Shown here: positions 1,966 to 10,234 of the stretch, piece by piece | Numbering within the stretch: the first letter of the stretch is position 1 | Layout of the letters: every line of letters starts with the position of its first letter | Assembly (NCBI GenBank): GCA_036172665.1 | Contig: CM069878.1 | Location: 20,346,501-20,410,500 of the forward strand | Length of the DNA stretch: 64,000 nucleotides | DNA from: Prosopocoilus inquinatus | Taxonomy: Eukaryota > Arthropoda > Insecta > Coleoptera > Lucanidae | Direction: 5' to 3' | Notes under the pieces: model-generated | The model's database searches: none | The model's input: only the letters and a program-made list of their open reading frames with translations | What the model was told of the DNA's origin: nothing | Translations under genes and position numbers: made by a program

Positions 1966-3495
1966 TTGATCTGTTTATAACATTGTTTTAGAAAAGTTGT
2001 ACCGTATAACTAATTACCGAACGCTATTTTTTTTTTAAATATGGGAGCTAATCAGAAAATAATTCTTACGGAATTTGTAAGCGTACGCGGCCGATTTTGG
2101 TCGACGTAGTTGCCGAAATTTTCGGGTTGTAACAAATAATTGGCATTTAAAATTCAAAAAATGTGGAAAAACTAATAAATTTATTAACGTTATGAACAAT
2201 TAAAACATAATTAAAATATAATTAAAAATAATATTATTGTAAAATATGCAAAATTAATCAGATTTTCAATACTGACCAATTCACAACTTCAAATTAGACA
2301 AGGTGTCTGTCCATCTGTCACGCTAACAATTCCTGCACCAAGGGTCACTTCCTAACCAAGAGTTTTATTTAAGAGTTTTATCATGTTTTTAAGGTAATTT
2401 ATTTTTTACGATAACCGCAAACGAGTTTTTCATAATATTGCGTTATATTATATTATAAGCAAAAATGGCCGTATAACGTAACGGAAAAGAACGTAGAACA
2501 TAAATTTTTACACGTAACTTTCCAACCCTGATTAGATAAAGTCCCCCGGTAGGCGGGTAATATGCCGTCTTACTTACGCATATCAATTGAAATTGTGGGT
2601 TAAGATCATTGAAATCCGCTGGACGGCAGGATTTCGCAACGGAATGCACGAAGCCGCCAGCGGACGTTCAGCACCAATTTTTTTAATTTTAAATATCCTC
2701 GCGCACACTACGGGGACGTAGAAAAAGCGGGCGTAATAGTTGCATTATGCGGAAACTAGGAACGTCACGAGCCCCGACAAACAACTAACAAACGTATTAA
2801 ATTATATTTAGCCGAAACTTTGTCCATTTATATTCTGCGAGGGACGGATATTTTTTATAATACCGGCGTGTATGCACTGCATGCGAAGTTCGGAACGAAC
2901 GAGTCAACAGCTTGTTTTCAAAGTGCAATCGAATGCGAGCTGAGCACCTGAACTCTGCATGAACACGCGAAAAATTGACTGTCATAAAATGCTGTGTCTG
3001 CAGGACGTGAACGATTTGGGAATTGCCTTACACGGACATCGACCGACCAAATTTCAGCAATCGTCGCAGTCTAAGACAAGCTTCTGTTCAGCTTGAAGTA
3101 TTATATTTCTTATCTCTTTTACTCCCAATAATATTGCTTTTATCACTTCGCGAGATCATTCCTTTCTTTCAATGAGACTCTTCCCTTCTTCATCAAAGTA
3201 CAACGCCGATCTATTTTCTAAACACGTTCATCACCACCACCACCATACTTGAAATTTTTTTTTCATTTCCTATCACAAAGTAACCACTTTCAATTATCAA
3301 GAATCTGTGGTTTTTAATGGAACTGTTATTAAGGGCACTGCCACCATATGGAAACAATCGTTTTTCGTTACAATAACTTTAACTAAGAAATTTAATTTCT
3401 TCTGACGGGGATCATCTATCTAAATATCGAAACTTCCTACCCGCTGCAAACTGTGCTAGAAGTTTTGTGTATGAAAACTGTGGATGGGATGATAC
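1966..3495. other. Non-coding, no recognised feature
   Basis: AT-rich sequence with a slightly GC-richer patch at about 2520-3070. The frames of 60-70 codons are short, lack recognisable motifs and have no neighbours supporting them. I see no splice, promoter or repeat structure that I can defend. Confidence 0.4.
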
Positions 3496-3830
3496 TGTTA
3501 CGTTTCTAGGGTTTGAGTTTATTTATTTAAACGAATAAAACACTCGATAAAAACTTAACCGTAATTTAATAAAGCTTAAAAACTAATTTATTTGTAATAA
3601 TTTATTTTCACACTAAAAATCTAACTTCGACGATCGCTGTTCGAATTCGACTGACTGCTGAGTCAACTTCGGCCGATTTTATATCATTTGCTGCCGTCTG
3701 GAATTCTCTAACGCTGGAAAAGTCTAGTCTGTTCGATGTAGGCCCCGGTGGCGTGATGGCCGATGACGCATAACAGCGAACCGACTTCTTGACGCCTTCA
3801 GCGTGACGTAGTACTGAGCGGCTCGCCACA
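3496..3830 (-). repeat. 3' LTR of the gypsy element
   Basis: Read on the minus strand it starts TGTGGCGAGCC and ends CGTAACA. The first ~160 plus-strand bases (R-U5 side) match the other LTR almost exactly, while the distal ~175 bases (U3 side) differ widely. A TATA box (TATAAAA on the minus strand, 3677-3683) sits at the same place as in the 5' LTR. The last codons of the gag-pol frame lie inside it. Confidence 0.93.
3677..3683 (-). promoter_or_regulatory. TATA box in the 3' LTR
   Basis: TATAAAA on the minus strand, conserved in position with 9881-9887 in the 5' LTR although the surrounding U3 has diverged. Confidence 0.6.
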
Positions 3831-6800
3831 CTGCTCCCTTCTTAAAAACGTTTCGTCTCGAAATGTTCCTGGTGATAGTCTTGAAGGAGGATGTCGGAAT
3901 CTACAAGCTGGCCCATTCTTGCAACTTCCCGTCTGGAAGAAGTAGCAGTCTATGGTTTTACTGTTGCTGACTGTTGCCTGTGGGTGATGGCTGCAGACTA
4001 GGACTTCAATTCCCGTTCTGTGGAAGATGACTTCCAGCATGCTTCGTATTACTCTCCAGTCTAGTCCGTCCAATCCGCAGCCCAATTTGGGGACGGCTAA
4101 CTTCATCTGGTGGTTCTCTATTAGCTGTCTCCTCAGGCTATATAGGGCTCTCCACATACTTTGATAGTCAGGTTTACCGCTTGATGTTTTCTTAGTGACT
4201 AAATAATGCACGTGGCGCCTCCGATCTGCCGTCGAATCAATGATCTGCAAGCTCTTGCCTACCACGGGATGCTGTCTTCGTAGCTCGTCGAGTTGACCAA
4301 ATTTCTTCCTAAACACCTGAGCGATTCCTTTGGACATTTTCAGGTCTTCTGCTACGCAGTGGGCCAGACTGTACTCCAGTGGCACTTTAAAGAGATCTTG
4401 TTGCTTCTCCGTGGTCACTCCAAACCGTGCCTTGCTTCCTTCGGCGTGATGAGACATTAAGGTTTCGAAGTTCACTTCGGAAACTTGCGCCCTTTGTACT
4501 GTCCCTTCATCTGCTTCTCCATGGTAAGGGGCTATCCGGTTGAAGTGGATTACTTTGGGTTTGCCATGGGGGACCTTCTTGATGCGGTAAACGACGTCGT
4601 TGATCCGTTTCATCACTTTGTAAGGACCTTCCCAAGAGGTCTGCAATTTTGGGGAGAGGCCTCGACGTCTTTGGGGGTTATAAAGCCAGACCAGTGCTCC
4701 AGGTTGGTATCCCCCGTGTTGAGCGTTGATGTCATAGTGCTCCTTCATCCGATCGCTGGCCGTCTGTATATTGTGACGCACTTGGTTGTGGATGTCATCC
4801 ATTTTCCTGCGTAATTTGCTCACGTAATCTTCGTCGGCAGAGACTTCGCCAGGCCTCCCACCAAACTTCAGGTCGCAGGGCAGTCTCGGCTCTCGCCCGA
4901 ATACCACTTTCGCGGGAGTCTCCCCTGTTGTCTCATGAACAGATGAGCGGTATGCCATTAGAAACAGGGGGATGTACGTGTCCCAGTCCCTCTGATGATT
5001 GGAAACGACCTTGGACAAATGTCGGTTGATGGTTCTATTGAACCTTTCCACCATTCCGTCCGACTGTGGGTGGAGTGCAGTTGTTCTAGTTTTTCGTACG
5101 CCGAGCAGAGTACACACGTTCTTGAACAAGGCCGATTCAAAGTTCCTTCCTTGGTCTGAATGCAGTTCCATAGGTGCACCATACCGACTGATCCATTCCC
5201 TGACAAGGACTTCCGCAATAGTGACTGCCTCTTGGTTAGGTAGGGCGTAAGCTTCAACCCACTTGCTAAAGTAGTCCATTACCACGACGATGTACTTGTT
5301 TCCACCATTCGTTTCTGGAAACGGGCCGGCTACATCGATGGCAACTCTCTCAAAAGGACTTCCAACGTTGTACTGTCTCATGGGAGCCTTACCGCGCCTG
5401 TGGGGACCGTTACTGGCTGCGCAGACTGTACACTTTCTGCACCAATCCTTCACGTCTTCCTTGCAGTTCACCCAGTAAAATCTTTCGCGCACTTTCTCCA
5501 TAGTCTTCTTAACTCCCAGATGCCCTCCCGAAGTTCCATCGTGAAGTTCCCTCAGAACTTCTGGCACCCTATTCTTGGGGATCAGTAACTGTGTCTTCTG
5601 TTCCATGCCTTCCTGATTCTCTATGCTTCGTCTCAGAAGACCACGATCCAACACTATGGAGTCCCACTGCGCCCAGTATGATTTTACGGACGGTGCACAT
5701 GGTGCTACCTCTTCCCAGGTAGGCCTCGCGTCCCTGCTTTTCCATTCTAGCACTAATTTCAAATCCGGGTCGTTCTCCTGGTCTCTTCGCAGTTCTTCGC
5801 CTTGCCATTTGTCGTCAACTTTGGCTGTCCTCGCAGTCGTGGCTACTTTCTCGTCCAAACGACTACAGTGCTTACAGTCTTCGGCACAGGGTCTTCTCGA
5901 CAGAGCATCGGCATTTCGATGGCTAGTTCCTGCCCGATGCTGAATTTCAAAATCATACTCCTGAAGTCGTTCGATCCATCGTGCAACTTGCCCTTCTGGG
6001 TTCTTGAAACGGAGAAGCCATTTTAGAGCGGCGTGGTCGGTCCTCAGCAGGAAGCGTCTACCATACAAGTACTTGTAGAAGTGTTCTATCGTTTTTACGA
6101 CGGCTAGCAATTCCCTTCTTGTGACGCAATAGTTTCGTTCCGGCTTTGATAGGACTTTACTGAAGTAGCCGATCACCTTCTCTTGCCCCTCTTGTATCTG
6201 GGAGAGTACGCCACCAATTCCAACGTTGCTAGCATCTGTGTCCACGACGAACTTGCCTTCCGGGAGAGGATAACTCAGAATAGGAGCACTAACCAAGTAC
6301 TGCTTTAGTTGTTCAAAGCCAATTTGACACTGTTGGTCCCATTCAAATGGACGACCTTCTTCAGTGAGTTTTGTTAACGGCTTAGCAATGTCTGCAAATC
6401 CAGGAACGTAGCGCCGATAGTAAGTGCACAGGCCAAGGAAACTCCTTATTTGGTGTTTATTTGTGGGAGTTGGCCAGTCTTTCACCACCTGAATCTTCAC
6501 AGGGTCCACGGCGATTCCGTTTCCATTAACAATGTGCCCCAGGTAATTCACTTCCTTCTGGAACAGGTGACACTTCTTGAGGCTAAGCTTTAGTCCAGCT
6601 CCGCGAAGCCGCTGGAACACTCCTTCCAGGTTCCTTAGGTGGTCGTCGAACGTCTTTCCCACGACAATTATGTCGTCAAGGTACACCACGCACGTTGTCC
6701 AGGACAGACCTTTCAGAACCGTCTCCATTAACCTCTCGAATGTCGCTGGGGCATTACATAACCCGAATGGCATCACTGTGAACTGCCACAGACCCATACC

Positions 6801-9458
6801 AATGGAAAACGCCGTCTTTTCTCGATCTTCGGGCGCCAGCTCCACTTGCCAATATCCACTCTTTAAGTCCAAAGTTGAGAAGATCTTTGAGCCGGCCAGG
6901 GTGTCCAGGGTATCATCAATCCGTGGCAAGGGATAGCTGTCCTTCTTGGTGACATTATTGAGTAACCGGTAGTCTACACAGAACCTGGTGGACCCATCCT
7001 TCTTCTTCACAAGCACTACTGGTGACGCCCACGGGCTGCTTGATGGTTCTATTACATTATCCTTTTCCATCTCTCGAATAATGCGTTCCGCTTCCTCACG
7101 CTTCGCCAACGGTAATCGCCTTGGAGCTTGACGGATAGGTCTTTCTTCTCCAGTCTCTATTTTGTGTTTCACGACATCAGTTCTTCCCTTGGATCTATTT
7201 TCTACCTCAAATACATCTTGATAGCGGCCGATCAGATTCTTTGCTTTTGTCTTCTGGTCTGGAGTCAATTCCTGGGCTGTTGACATAACCATTTCCCATA
7301 ATTTCTTTGGGACTTTCGCTTCTGGCACGTTTGTTTCAAGTTGCCGGGAGATGGAGGACACCATGGTGCAGCTTCCCAAGATTGTTCCTTTCTTGATATT
7401 GACAGAGAAACAATTGACGTTCATCAGGCGGACAGGTACTTCCTTCTTCGCCGTCAACAACATTTTCCCAACGAGGACTCCTCTTCCAATCCTTTGATCA
7501 TCAGTATTAGGTTCAACCATAATGACTTGCCCATCTTGAAAAACACCGTCCAGTTTTGCGTCGACGATAACCTCAGTCCTGCTGGGTAATACAATGTCTT
7601 CAGCGAGGACTACTCGAGCGGCCACGTCCCCTCGTTGATGTAGAACCAACTCCTCATTATTGACCGCCATCACGCCACGCTTTAAGTCCAATTGGAACCC
7701 GTGGGCACACATGACGTCCATGCCCAAAATTGCCTCGTCCTCTATATCTGCCACCAGTGCACGGTGTTTTATTGGAGTTGAACCAATGGTGATGATAACC
7801 TCTACTTCACCGTGGACAGTTGCTGATGTTCCAGTCGCAGTTTTCAGTCTCCACTTGGTCGGCTCGGTGCGTCCAGATGACTTAATGACGTCGGGTCTTA
7901 GGATGGTCTTCGTCGCACCCGTATCCAACAACATGGTGTGAGGAATGTCATCAATGGTAACATCCACGAAGATACTGCTGGTTAACTGCCGTAGGGATAT
8001 TACTTGGTTGGCTTTCGTCTTTGGGGGCCTTTGAATACGGGTCGACGTTTGCCCCTCTGCACCGACCCGGCTTAGTTTAACTGTGGCTTCCTTGGATCCT
8101 GTCTGGGCTTTGGACATCGCCTGCGAACATGTCCTTCGTCCTGGCCTTTCCAGCGGCTTCTTCTTCTTGAGGACCTGTTCCACAATGCGGCGAACATCCT
8201 CGGCGGTGGTATACTCCCTGGGTCGCTCCTTTATAGCAGATCCCACCTTGGCGTTAGCGGATTCTTCCTCTTCTTCCTCTTGGAAGTCCATAGCCGCTCG
8301 CACCTTGACATGCCCTCTTGAGACTCGTCTCGCCGCTTCAAATTCCAAGGCATAAGCCAATGCGTTCTTGGACGTCTTCGGATGGGTCATTCTCAATGCC
8401 TGCTGGTTGTCTGGGTCACGGATTCCATCTATGAAGGTCTGCACCGTCAAACATTTGAGGAATTCAACAGGAGCTGTGGGATATGCCAACTGGGCCAGAC
8501 GCGCAACGTCTGCTTCGAATTCCTGAAGACTTTCTCCGGATTTCTGACAGCGATTCCTTAACTGCGCATGGTATACCTCAGTCAGATGGGCCTGTCCGTA
8601 ACGCATTTCCATCCTATTCACAAGCTTGTCGAAGTCTTCTTGTTCCTCTGGCGGCATCGTCTGTAGCACATCGATAGCGTCCCCTCTCAAGGCCACAATT
8701 AACGAAGTGGCTTTTTCGCTGGCCGTCCATCTGTTCGCCTTTGCTGCTGCTTCGAACTGTTTGAAGTAGTTGGGCCAAGAAGACTTTCCATCGAACGTTG
8801 GTGGTTTTACTTTCAGTTTAAAATTTTCTGCTGGTCCTTCCACAATTCGGGTTTCATTATTTTCTACTACTTCTACTGGTGGCTGATCCCCGAACACTCG
8901 CAACCCCGCCATGATTTGTTCCAGATTTTTGATTTTATTATCCTGCTGGAATATTATTTCTTCCACGTTTTCTTGAAGGTTTCTTGTTTCTTCCGATATT
9001 TTTACCACTAGTTTATCTTCGAGTCCTTTCGTCTGTTCTAGAAATTCACCCTTCAAATTTCCGGACTGTTCTAGAAGTTTCTCGTCGAAATTTCTGGATT
9101 GCTCTAGAAATTTCTCGTCTAAGTCTCTAGATTGTTCCAACAATTTATTTTGTAATTTGTCGAAATTTCCAGATTGTTCTAGAAGCTTCTCCTCTAAATT
9201 TCTGGATTGTTCTCGAAGTTCTTCCTTGAAATTTCCAGATTGTTCTAGAAGCTTTTTCTCTAAATTTCCAGACTGTTCTTGAAACTTTTCGTCCAAATTT
9301 CTGGATTGTTCTCGAAATTCATCCTTGAAATTTCCAGATTGTTCTAGAAACTTCTCGTCCAAATTTCTGGATTGTTCTCGAAGTTCATCCTTCAAGATTT
9401 TTGTTAAAATCGACGGGACCACACGAAATTTCGAAAAGGAACGTCTCTGGATCTTCAC
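3798..9458 (-). CDS. Gypsy gag-pol polyprotein with C-terminal TARG1-like macro domain and CCCH zinc finger
   Basis: An 1886-codon frame. In order: 11-residue coiled-coil repeats (aa ~20-150); retrotransposon gag core starting near the W at 228 (to ~385); retropepsin with LLDTGATKT (Asp 512); RT with YLDD (Asp 928-929); RNase H (Asp 1073); integrase zinc domain from His 1306 and catalytic D1375-D1435-E1471 with the 35-residue D-E spacing; GPY/F-type module near 1608. After it come a macro domain (~1685-1825) with YLVTKK (Lys 1756) and GCGLDGL (Asp 1797), the positions of the TARG1/OARD1 catalytic pair, then a C-x7-C-x5-C-x3-H finger (C1838, C1846, C1852, H1856). No CCHC knuckle is seen in gag. 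The stop lies in the 3' LTR. Met 1 is probably not the native start: a SAP-coding frame begins upstream at 9594 and needs a frame change near 9391-9410. The macro domain would be expected to remove ADP-ribose from protein or bind it; this is inference from the family. Confidence 0.93.
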   Translation of the reverse strand: MKIQRRSFSKFRVVPSILTKILKDELREQSRNLDEKFLEQSGNFKDEFREQSRNLDEKFQEQSGNLEKKLLEQSGNFKEELREQSRNLEEKLLEQSGNFDKLQNKLLEQSRDLDEKFLEQSRNFDEKLLEQSGNLKGEFLEQTKGLEDKLVVKISEETRNLQENVEEIIFQQDNKIKNLEQIMAGLRVFGDQPPVEVVENNETRIVEGPAENFKLKVKPPTFDGKSSWPNYFKQFEAAAKANRWTASEKATSLIVALRGDAIDVLQTMPPEEQEDFDKLVNRMEMRYGQAHLTEVYHAQLRNRCQKSGESLQEFEADVARLAQLAYPTAPVEFLKCLTVQTFIDGIRDPDNQQALRMTHPKTSKNALAYALEFEAARRVSRGHVKVRAAMDFQEEEEEESANAKVGSAIKERPREYTTAEDVRRIVEQVLKKKKPLERPGRRTCSQAMSKAQTGSKEATVKLSRVGAEGQTSTRIQRPPKTKANQVISLRQLTSSIFVDVTIDDIPHTMLLDTGATKTILRPDVIKSSGRTEPTKWRLKTATGTSATVHGEVEVIITIGSTPIKHRALVADIEDEAILGMDVMCAHGFQLDLKRGVMAVNNEELVLHQRGDVAARVVLAEDIVLPSRTEVIVDAKLDGVFQDGQVIMVEPNTDDQRIGRGVLVGKMLLTAKKEVPVRLMNVNCFSVNIKKGTILGSCTMVSSISRQLETNVPEAKVPKKLWEMVMSTAQELTPDQKTKAKNLIGRYQDVFEVENRSKGRTDVVKHKIETGEERPIRQAPRRLPLAKREEAERIIREMEKDNVIEPSSSPWASPVVLVKKKDGSTRFCVDYRLLNNVTKKDSYPLPRIDDTLDTLAGSKIFSTLDLKSGYWQVELAPEDREKTAFSIGMGLWQFTVMPFGLCNAPATFERLMETVLKGLSWTTCVVYLDDIIVVGKTFDDHLRNLEGVFQRLRGAGLKLSLKKCHLFQKEVNYLGHIVNGNGIAVDPVKIQVVKDWPTPTNKHQIRSFLGLCTYYRRYVPGFADIAKPLTKLTEEGRPFEWDQQCQIGFEQLKQYLVSAPILSYPLPEGKFVVDTDASNVGIGGVLSQIQEGQEKVIGYFSKVLSKPERNYCVTRRELLAVVKTIEHFYKYLYGRRFLLRTDHAALKWLLRFKNPEGQVARWIERLQEYDFEIQHRAGTSHRNADALSRRPCAEDCKHCSRLDEKVATTARTAKVDDKWQGEELRRDQENDPDLKLVLEWKSRDARPTWEEVAPCAPSVKSYWAQWDSIVLDRGLLRRSIENQEGMEQKTQLLIPKNRVPEVLRELHDGTSGGHLGVKKTMEKVRERFYWVNCKEDVKDWCRKCTVCAASNGPHRRGKAPMRQYNVGSPFERVAIDVAGPFPETNGGNKYIVVVMDYFSKWVEAYALPNQEAVTIAEVLVREWISRYGAPMELHSDQGRNFESALFKNVCTLLGVRKTRTTALHPQSDGMVERFNRTINRHLSKVVSNHQRDWDTYIPLFLMAYRSSVHETTGETPAKVVFGREPRLPCDLKFGGRPGEVSADEDYVSKLRRKMDDIHNQVRHNIQTASDRMKEHYDINAQHGGYQPGALVWLYNPQRRRGLSPKLQTSWEGPYKVMKRINDVVYRIKKVPHGKPKVIHFNRIAPYHGEADEGTVQRAQVSEVNFETLMSHHAEGSKARFGVTTEKQQDLFKVPLEYSLAHCVAEDLKMSKGIAQVFRKKFGQLDELRRQHPVVGKSLQIIDSTADRRRHVHYLVTKKTSSGKPDYQSMWRALYSLRRQLIENHQMKLAVPKLGCGLDGLDWRVIRSMLEVIFHRTGIEVLVCSHHPQATVSNSKTIDCYFFQTGSCKNGPACRFRHPPSRLSPGTFRDETFLRREQCGEPLSTTSR
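3831..3843 (-). other. Polypurine tract
   Basis: Immediately upstream (minus strand) of the 3' LTR the sequence is AAGAAGGGAGCAG, a purine run suited to priming plus-strand DNA synthesis. It is also translated as part of the C-terminus of the long frame (Arg-Arg-Glu-Gln), so the tract is embedded in coding sequence. Confidence 0.8.
9010..9400 (-). repeat. 33-bp coding minisatellite encoding hendecad coiled coil
   Basis: About eleven tandem units, each coding eleven residues built on EQS(R/G)N(L/F)-E-(K/F)L. Units alternate EQSRN and EQSGN forms. An 11-residue period is a hendecad, expected to make an extended, slightly right-handed coiled coil, here probably for Gag oligomerisation. One unit near 9140-9180 has three extra residues, which breaks the register. 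Confidence 0.9.
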
Positions 9459-9594
9459 CAGCTGTCAACAAATCGGATCGGAGACGCTGTTGAAGTGCGC
9501 CTTTCAAACCACAGGTTTCTAACTCTCGTTCTTCCAATTCGGTTTTTAATTCGGCCACTTTTAAGTCTTTCAACAACACTTTTCTCGTAGCCAT
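9385..9594 (-). CDS. Gag N-terminus with SAP domain, frameshifted from the long frame
   Basis: Sixty-nine codons starting at an ATG soon after the leader and overlapping the long frame by about 74 bases in another phase. Residues ~8-43 fit the SAP fold (LKVAELKTELEERELE, then a Gly and AL-QRL), a DNA/chromatin-binding helix-turn-helix found at the start of some insect gypsy gags. The frame closes just after a run of five A residues (minus strand, near 9396-9405) where the long frame is open in the neighbouring phase. A single-base slippage mutation or assembly error is the simplest explanation; programmed frameshifting so close to the start would be unusual. Confidence 0.8.
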   Translation of the reverse strand: MATRKVLLKDLKVAELKTELEERELETCGLKGALQQRLRSDLLTAGEDPETFLFEISCGPVDFNKNLEG

Positions 9595-9698: not shown

Positions 9699-10026
9699 TG
9701 GTACGTTTCTAGGGTTTGAGTTTATTTATTTAAACGAATAAAACACTCGATAAAAACTTAACCGTAATTTAATAAAGCTTAAAAACTAATTTATTTGTAA
9801 TAATTTATTTTCACACTAAAAATCTAACTTCGACGATCGCTGTTCGAATTCGACTCGACTGGTGAGTCAACTCCGGGCCATTTTATATCATTTGCTGGCG
9901 TCTGGAAGTCTCTATTCGGGAAGATTCCAGTCCGTTCGATGTGGGCCCGACCGCGTGACGGCCGATGACACACCGAAGCGGATCGACTTCCTGACGCCTT
10001 GCGCTAAGTCAGGTTGGCTCGCCACA
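9699..10026 (-). repeat. 5' LTR of the gypsy element
   Basis: Minus-strand ends are TGTGGCGAGCC and CGTACCA. It would drive transcription of the element: TATAAAA is at 9881-9887 (minus strand), and AATAAA-like poly(A) signals occur in the R-U5 side. The U3 half differs from that of the 3' LTR by many substitutions and small indels. Confidence 0.93.
9881..9887 (-). promoter_or_regulatory. TATA box in the 5' LTR
   Basis: TATAAAA on the minus strand inside U3. It is the likely core promoter of the gypsy element and lies at the same offset as in the other LTR. Confidence 0.65.
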
Positions 10027-10234
10027 ATACCATTAAATGTTATTATTATTGTAAGTATTTAATCTCTAACCGGACAGAATATAAATGGAAAAACACTCAA
10101 AAAGTAAATAAACGTTGCGTGCTTTTCCATTTATACTGGTTGTCTCATAACCTAAGCAGGAGATTAAAAGGGTAGCTAGGGGAGATTAAATTAAAGCTTT
10201 TTTTCTTAATAAATTTTTGGTAAAAAGTCTATAA

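Follow-up and report, generated by a model that had tools for sequence, protein, structure and literature searches.

What does a macro domain do at the end of the Pol protein of an insect retrotransposon? The question is raised by a locus of the beetle Prosopocoilus inquinatus. Its window (the whole 64,000-nucleotide stretch that was analysed) holds a minus-strand reading frame of 1,886 aa (9458..3798), which the initial annotation had read as a gypsy polyprotein fused to a macro domain and a CCCH finger. The frame itself stood but its beginning did not, as the GTG at 9458 is merely the earliest start codon in the mechanically derived frame and Gag starts in another one; the stop codon (3798-3800) lies inside the 3' LTR. 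All the features that follow are on the minus strand. The 5' LTR (9699..10026; TGTGGCGAGCC ... CGTACCA) and the 3' LTR (3496..3830) form a direct repeat, flanked by a target-site duplication GTAT (10027..10030 on the 5' side and 3492..3495 on the 3' side), with both the LTR ends and the duplication read by eye. Between them, Pfam recovered the PR-RT-RH-IN order by which Ty3/gypsy elements are recognized: an aspartic protease (7710..7961, PF13650, E 1e-9; the match starts at the edge of the searched piece, and the domain may extend further upstream), a reverse transcriptase (6528..7010, PF00078, E 1.3e-38), an RNase H (5955..6263, PF17917, E 4.2e-34), and an integrase made up of the H2C2 zinc-binding domain (5409..5582, PF17921, E 9.5e-21), the core (5076..5357, PF00665, E 6.7e-13) and a p58-type C-terminal domain, Integrase_p58_C (4527..4628, PF22938, E 2e-11). 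Two of the catalytic residues, D1375 and D1435, are within the core match, while E1471 (codon 5046-5048) is just past its end. A purine-rich tract (3831..3843) with a presumed role lies before the 3' LTR and overlaps the codons of a conserved C-terminal LRRxQC. No errantivirus-type env follows pol in the window element. Its Gag region (7962..9458) contains 11-residue (33-nt) repeats that we read as coiled-coil-like, but this copy, as distinct from the family, has no intact Gag, because the SAP-domain start (9388..9594, ATG at 9594, PF02037, E 7.2e-8) is upstream in another frame; a stretch resembling CCHC knuckles likewise reads in another frame. The window element is a gypsy-type LTR retrotransposon with a TARG1-type macro domain and a CCCH finger at the C terminus of Pol.

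The macro domain (3987..4424) was identified by sequence, fold and residues. Pfam Macro gave 17.7 bits on the window frame, under the cut-off of 22, whereas the CCCH finger (C1838-C1846-C1852-H1856, 3885..3959) matched PF00642 above the cut-off (E 5.5e-6). In a phmmer search against PDB sequences, five TARG1 chains were recovered at E 5.8e-29 to 9.8e-29, far beyond chance, and the next macro match was the DarG macro domain (5m3i, E 2e-5); fold comparison also gave a macro fold closest to TARG1. The catalytic pair, K1756 (4191-4193) and D1797 (4068-4070), is kept, and these residues, the integrase triad and the C-x7-C-x5-C-x3-H spacing, which fits C-x7/8-C-x5-C-x3-H, are all where the initial annotation had placed them. 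The window domain matches the TARG1 signature TKx(30,35)Px[IL]GxGxD (PMC6397177). Among 25 representatives at <80% identity, lysine and aspartate are each kept in 23, the ADP-ribose-binding positions H, C, G, I and T in 23-24, G123 in 22, and the CCCH pattern in 21. The strict signature was found in 14 of the 25, versus 22 of 22 cellular-type rows, and rises to 21 when the first G is left free; TARG1 S35 is replaced by Ala in 23. Both catalytic residues are also present in all of the 30 own-genome copies that scored best by protein. In one Diabrotica protein the two are replaced by R and E, and a D. undecimpunctata protein likewise reads TRK and HALEN at the catalytic sites, so that, judging from these residues, the activity may be lost in the Diabrotica lineage. 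The finger also resembles CPSF30-type fingers (E 3.5e-12, a sum across stretches that are each weak) and, by analogy with its family, would bind RNA.

The fusion is not a single chimera or an assembly join; this explanation was rejected because many copies in the genome, at least 150 of the window type, and several other beetles carry it. By Pfam annotation of the matches, the fusion occurs in at least seven beetle genera. An integrase tail followed by a macro domain was found in a contig of a metagenome (P0050), and reading by eye placed the same pair in a leafhopper. Pfam Macro alone proved too weak a detector for the window type: a whole-genome search gave 39 places, none of which was a window-type copy. 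Related domains are found in further element types of the same genome at two positions of Pol, i.e., right after the integrase C-terminal domain in type C, as in the window element (type A), and between protease and reverse transcriptase, not on the integrase, in types B, B2, D and E. All 34 complete copies of these further types retain the lysine and aspartate motifs; one type also carries a ubiquitin-specific protease, and types E and B2, unlike the window element, have env-like frames. A Pfam search of pieces of types B to E gave no CCCH finger. A search for relatives in IMG/VR gave 17 pattern matches, with none confirmed. It should be noted that insect proteins annotated as OARD1-like can be pieces of retroelements.

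There is selection against amino-acid change in the macro domain. Among own-genome copies, pN/pS is lowest in the macro part (0.11) and higher in the finger (0.53) and the tail (0.96), in a sample of the 30 best loci by protein score that biases the ratio downward, and dN/dS between diverged copies is 0.14-0.25 for types B/B2 and D. When the window was compared with the other copies, pN/pS was 2.75 in the finger and 3.87 in the tail, over few sites, with no constraint visible there.

The initial annotation had the domain captured from the host. A cellular origin is supported in outline because the domain is a member of the TARG1 family; a donor did not emerge, as the tree shifts when element types are added. 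The rows of all the macro-domain trees were hand-picked from the matches. With type A alone, a Rhamnusium sequence (P0118) and a second sequence (P0077) were its sister (95/85), and they left this place once types B to D were added; both are rows of unknown context. In a tree that left out seven earlier non-element rows, the long-branch type E joined A (95/99), with the bootstrap unsettled. A single capture for all the types was not rejected (p-AU 0.074 and 0.098). Dating the captures by comparing reverse transcriptase and macro identity was dropped, as the identity of types B and B2 is 94-96% over the reverse transcriptase core (four blocks of 150 nt) and drops to 53-92% in the remaining blocks, a contrast that is a sign of exchange. 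No cellular OARD1 gene was found in the own genome with P0077 as the query (150 of 1,303 candidates scored); the best rows examined were element copies, by which an intron-split gene would be swamped.

The element family took up a cell-derived domain that probably strips ADP-ribose tags. Building on fold, homology, residues, recurrence and selection, we infer, and consider somewhat probable, that the domain is an active ADP-ribosylhydrolase, packaged as part of Pol and erasing host ADP-ribosylation to the benefit of the element. As in TARG1, which takes ADP-ribose off thymidine while its K84A mutant cannot (from the part of PMC8501950 consulted), the lysine would attack ADP-ribose and the aspartate release it. 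Synthesized as a part of Pol, the domain would enter the particle and work at or after nuclear entry of the cDNA complex, where it would remove the ADP-ribose with which host transferases had marked the complex, nucleic-acid ends or the chromatin proteins that silence elements; the CCCH finger may keep it on RNA or on the complex. We count against this explanation the Ala at S35, the looser TARG1 pattern, the Diabrotica losses, the broken Gag of the window copy and the high pN/pS of its finger and tail.

Instead, the domain could mainly be a reader that binds ADP-ribose on chromatin and steers the integrase to ADP-ribosylated sites, with hydrolysis unimportant, much as a chromodomain steers the integrase in chromoviruses. 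The macro domains adjoining the integrase C-terminal domain in the window element and in type C, and the conserved ADP-ribose-binding positions, would suit such a role; however, the catalytic residues are as strictly conserved as the binding ones, and in types B, B2, D and E the domain is away from the integrase, so we regard it as unlikely. The same placement weakens the proposal of the initial annotation that ADP-ribose removal serves the integrase at DNA breaks, and the variable position in Pol is more easily reconciled with a packaged enzyme that erases host ADP-ribosylation. A role in repair or protection of the nucleic acid of the element itself, by stripping ADP-ribose off the ends or bases of cDNA or RNA and letting reverse transcription and integration continue, seems similarly improbable; the resemblance of the finger to the RNA-binding fingers of CPSF30 argues for it, but the finger was not found in the searched pieces of types B to E. 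That the domain is a functionless passenger, captured by chance and hitch-hiking with Pol, is very improbable in spite of the Diabrotica lineage and the partly broken window copy, given the low dN/dS and pN/pS, the residues conserved among divergent representatives and the recurrence in several types of element, at two places in Pol.

The packaged eraser has a context in what is known of silencing, although the facts cited here concern other hosts and other elements. In the parts of the sources consulted, Drosophila without PARP-1 has several mobile elements up, gypsy-type included, while three of the eight significantly changed elements go down and an indirect effect is allowed by the authors (PMC7712786), and L1 is silenced by SIRT6 via mono-ADP-ribosylated KAP1 (PMC4695847). 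The related domains in further elements of the genome, some of them elsewhere in the protein, suggest that the ADP-ribose tag has a part in the conflict that insects have with their mobile DNA. A broader and more tentative proposal, which we consider somewhat less likely than not, is that gypsy-type elements of insects have acquired tag-erasing enzymes more than once (TARG1-type at two positions of Pol, in one type together with a ubiquitin-specific protease); ADP-ribosylation would then be a standing insect defense and the Pol-borne domains a counter-defense. The conserved domains would also make the restraint of insect retroelements by ADP-ribosylation directly testable, with one small domain and a pair of point mutants.

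Compared with known systems, the window element shares with Ty3/gypsy (Metaviridae) the order of the Pol domains, the H2C2 and DDE integrase with its p58_C domain, LTRs with TG..CA ends and the 4-bp target-site duplication; unlike them, its Pol extends into macro domain and finger, with the stop codon in the 3' LTR, and its Gag starts with a SAP domain. TARG1/OARD1 (C6orf130) is a cellular ADP-ribosylhydrolase, whereas here the domain is not a free-standing gene but part of the Pol of a retrotransposon, is followed by a CCCH finger and has Ala at S35. The DarG macro domain differs as the antitoxin of a bacterial toxin-antitoxin pair. Our search of the open-licence literature, in which broad topics were covered by the top-ranked papers, did not bring up a gypsy Pol with a macro domain. 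A retroelement with a macro domain was already known: fish epsilon-like endogenous retroviruses have macro-domain ORFs (Basta et al. 2009, cited in PMC4977317), and, as far as the consulted part of that source goes, there the macro domain is an additional reading frame of the retrovirus, unlike the fusion to Pol. The macrodomains of RNA viruses (coronavirus Mac1, alphavirus nsP3) are likewise encoded by the parasite and, in the part of PMC7232374 consulted, oppose host ADP-ribosylation, a battlefield that transposable elements would join if our reading is correct.

The fusion read in the initial annotation, in which a gypsy Pol runs on into a TARG1/OARD1-type macro domain and a CCCH finger, lies in a mechanically called open reading frame from 9458 to 3798 on the minus strand, and Pfam searches of four pieces of it gave the gypsy order of aspartic protease, RT, RNase H, H2C2 and core integrase, and a p58-type integrase C terminus. 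The LTRs, at about 9699-10026 and 3496-3830 on the same strand, and the 4-bp target duplication (GTAT) that flanks the element on both sides were read by eye. The finger (C-x7-C-x5-C-x3-H, residues 1838-1856) matches zf-CCCH in Pfam (E value, 5.5e-6) and probably binds RNA; the best match of the 54-residue tail alone is CPSF30 (CPSF4), at 3.5e-12 summed over several individually weak stretches. The final codons of the frame overlap the purine-rich tract and the opening bases of the 3' LTR, which would explain why LRRxQC is conserved as the C-terminal motif of the relatives. The two LTRs of this one insertion form a mosaic, with a 159-nt repeat (one mismatch) on the R-U5 side and only ca. 80% similarity on the U3 side; the 5' U3 had no match above 85% in a set of 30 loci that included the 3' side of the window insertion itself. 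In Gag, 33-nt repeats at 9015-9419 encode 11-residue coiled-coil-like units. A SAP domain begins Gag at 9388-9594, in a frame that differs from the long one, as is also the case for a knuckle-like stretch at ca. 8200; SAP at the start of Gag is common to many Aromia models (Pfam column).

This element (type A) belongs to a large family. When the 649.6-Mb assembly (173 contigs) was searched with the macro-CCCH part, all 150 loci scored, out of 1,498 first-look candidates, matched at 94 to 100% identity, and 124 of these rows had no internal stop (hand count). The 30 best loci were cut out; 23 are distinct, 29 are stop-free in the macro-CCCH part, and all 30 keep the catalytic pair (K1756 and D1797) and the four zinc ligands. 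Pooled pN/pS over these loci was 0.11 for the macro domain, 0.53 for the finger and 0.96 for the tail (0.21, 2.75 and 3.87 for the window versus the other loci). The low macro value is biased, since the loci were picked by protein score; the contrast between the three parts across this one set of loci is less affected, yet finger and tail are short. A second copy (L059, G000:C10:20244944-20245654) is found ca. 105 kb from the window copy, on the opposite strand, with 99.9% identity across 711 nt of the macro-CCCH part.

The same architecture recurs in other beetles. From a 387-residue piece, the macro-CCCH part retrieved 53 proteins (E ≤ 0.1) among 682 candidates, a longer-protein search 137 (E ≤ 0.01) among 529, and a macro-only profile 321 (E ≤ 0.001) among 5,204, the matches listed for the last including fly and mosquito proteins named OARD1. 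Integrase-type Pfam domains, macro domain and finger occur in one protein, among the matches listed, in Aromia, Molorchus, Exocentrus, Gonioctena, Diabrotica, Leptinotarsa and Harmonia; judged by their element-type macro domains, the beetles Pyrocoelia, Brassicogethes, Callosobruchus, Acanthoscelides and Aquatica are further candidates. A record under the name of the fungus Erysiphe pulchra may be insect DNA. The 164 proteins pooled from the first two of these searches come mostly from Aromia, and they were therefore clustered into 25 representatives (<80% identity, window included). Of these, 23 have the lysine (the other two show R and a gap), 23 have the aspartate (the other two show E and a gap) and 21 have the CCCH spacing; two of the four that lack the spacing (P0035 and P0054) look cut or garbled. 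Both replacements are in a single Diabrotica protein (P0029), and P0057, from another Diabrotica, reads alike. In the hemipterans Macrosteles and Nilaparvata, macro domains fall in the type A clade; the Macrosteles proteins (by eye) and a metagenomic one, P0050 (Pfam column), open with an integrase tail and have no CCCH finger after the macro domain. Five insect proteins annotated as "ADP-ribose glycohydrolase OARD1-like" (P0057, P0058, P0059, P0062 and P0064) group in the retroelement clade in a tree.

Type A is not the only carrier. A Pfam Macro search of the genome gave 39 places, all inspected, of which 34 are complete TARG1-type copies in further gypsy-type elements (14 B, 8 B2, 6 C, 4 D and 2 E). 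Two more are interrupted (L019 and L025), L001 and L002 seem to be two fragments of an ordinary macro gene, and L003 had no TARG1-type match. Architectures were read with Pfam from stretches that flank one or two copies of each type; the remaining copies were typed by flanking residues (L020 by its macro part alone). Type B has Gag with a CCHC knuckle in its own frame, followed by PR-macro-RT-RH-IN-p58_C, and B2 has PR upstream of the macro domain and RT-RH-IN-p58_C downstream. For type D, PR-macro was seen in one insertion (L035), and Gag (L033) and macro plus RT-RH (L034) in another, whose flanking pieces gave no protease match. In type C the macro domain comes after PR-RT-RH-IN-p58_C, with no CCCH found by Pfam in the flanking pieces. 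Type E reads PR-macro-RT-RH-H2C2 and then, in one open frame, integrase core, p58_C and a ubiquitin-specific protease (PF00443, 1.5e-52; best match human USP2, 5.6e-50) in which, by eye, the Cys and His boxes seem to be in place. A stop codon separates the two halves of that copy and the other has a frame break in the integrase C-terminal part, so neither of the two seen is uninterrupted. Type E loci are L048, L052, L053 and L054 (G000:C5:52238500-52249500) and L049 and L057 (C4). Env-like frames occur after the type E ubiquitin-specific protease (Baculo_F, 6e-31) and in type B2 (L056, G000:C5:33123000-33126000; Monjiviricetes_fusion, 2.2e-171), and a small KH-domain frame (L055:1192-1767; 9.3e-12) lies downstream of a type B Pol.

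All 34 complete copies retain the lysine motif and a GxD-type end of the TARG1 signature, and 31 of them fit the strict pattern, TKx(30,35)Px[IL]GxGxD (PMC6397177). Macro dN/dS (Nei-Gojobori) was 0.14 to 0.15 between B and B2, at a dS of 1.4 to 1.5, near saturation, 0.17 to 0.25 among D copies and 0.19 to 0.53 for close pairs where computable.

In a 47-row tree, a branch separates the type A macro domains from all other rows (support, 100/98), with the Hemiptera nested inside type A (97/90) and two rows of unassigned context as its sister (95/85). With the own-genome types added, B, C and D were each one group, B plus D grouped weakly (57/75 and 80/81 in two trees) and E, on a long branch, grouped with A. 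Neither A plus C (P = 0.060) nor a single clade of all types (P = 0.074 and 0.098) was rejected, and therefore one capture with later moves within Pol and several separate captures would both be compatible with the sequences. Patchy exchange between lineages is likely, since identity between B and B2 (L039/L040 versus L029/L030) is 94 to 96% in four RT-core blocks and 53 to 92% in the others.

As for function, the macro domain might be an ADP-ribose reader on the integrase. An eraser carried in the particle via Pol seems preferable because conservation of the catalytic lysine and aspartate is as strict as that of the binding residues, the domain sits at different places in Pol in different types, and type E adds a second eraser, a deubiquitinase. 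For the statement as a whole, we lean slightly towards an ADP-ribosylhydrolase that is carried on Pol and would counter ADP-ribosylation by the host. Facts from other elements and systems render the eraser reading plausible. Among the mobile elements that change significantly in Drosophila lacking PARP-1, five of eight are reported to go up, and nine of 10 additional weaker rises are gypsy-type, an effect that its authors consider possibly indirect (PMC7712786). SIRT6 is reported to silence L1 by way of mono-ADP-ribosylated KAP1 (PMC4695847), thymidine-linked ADP-ribose to be cleared by TARG1 and not by its K84A mutant (PMC8501950), and PARP responses to be countered by viral macrodomains (PMC7232374).

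Searches of an open-licence collection of papers turned up no report of a macro domain in gypsy Pol. Fish epsilon-like ERVs are reported to have macro-domain open reading frames (PMC4977317), so that capture of a macro domain by a retroelement is already known. The domain described here is of the TARG1 type, is located inside Pol, comes with a CCCH finger, belongs to a large family and stands beside other element types that carry domains like it, and these would be the new features.
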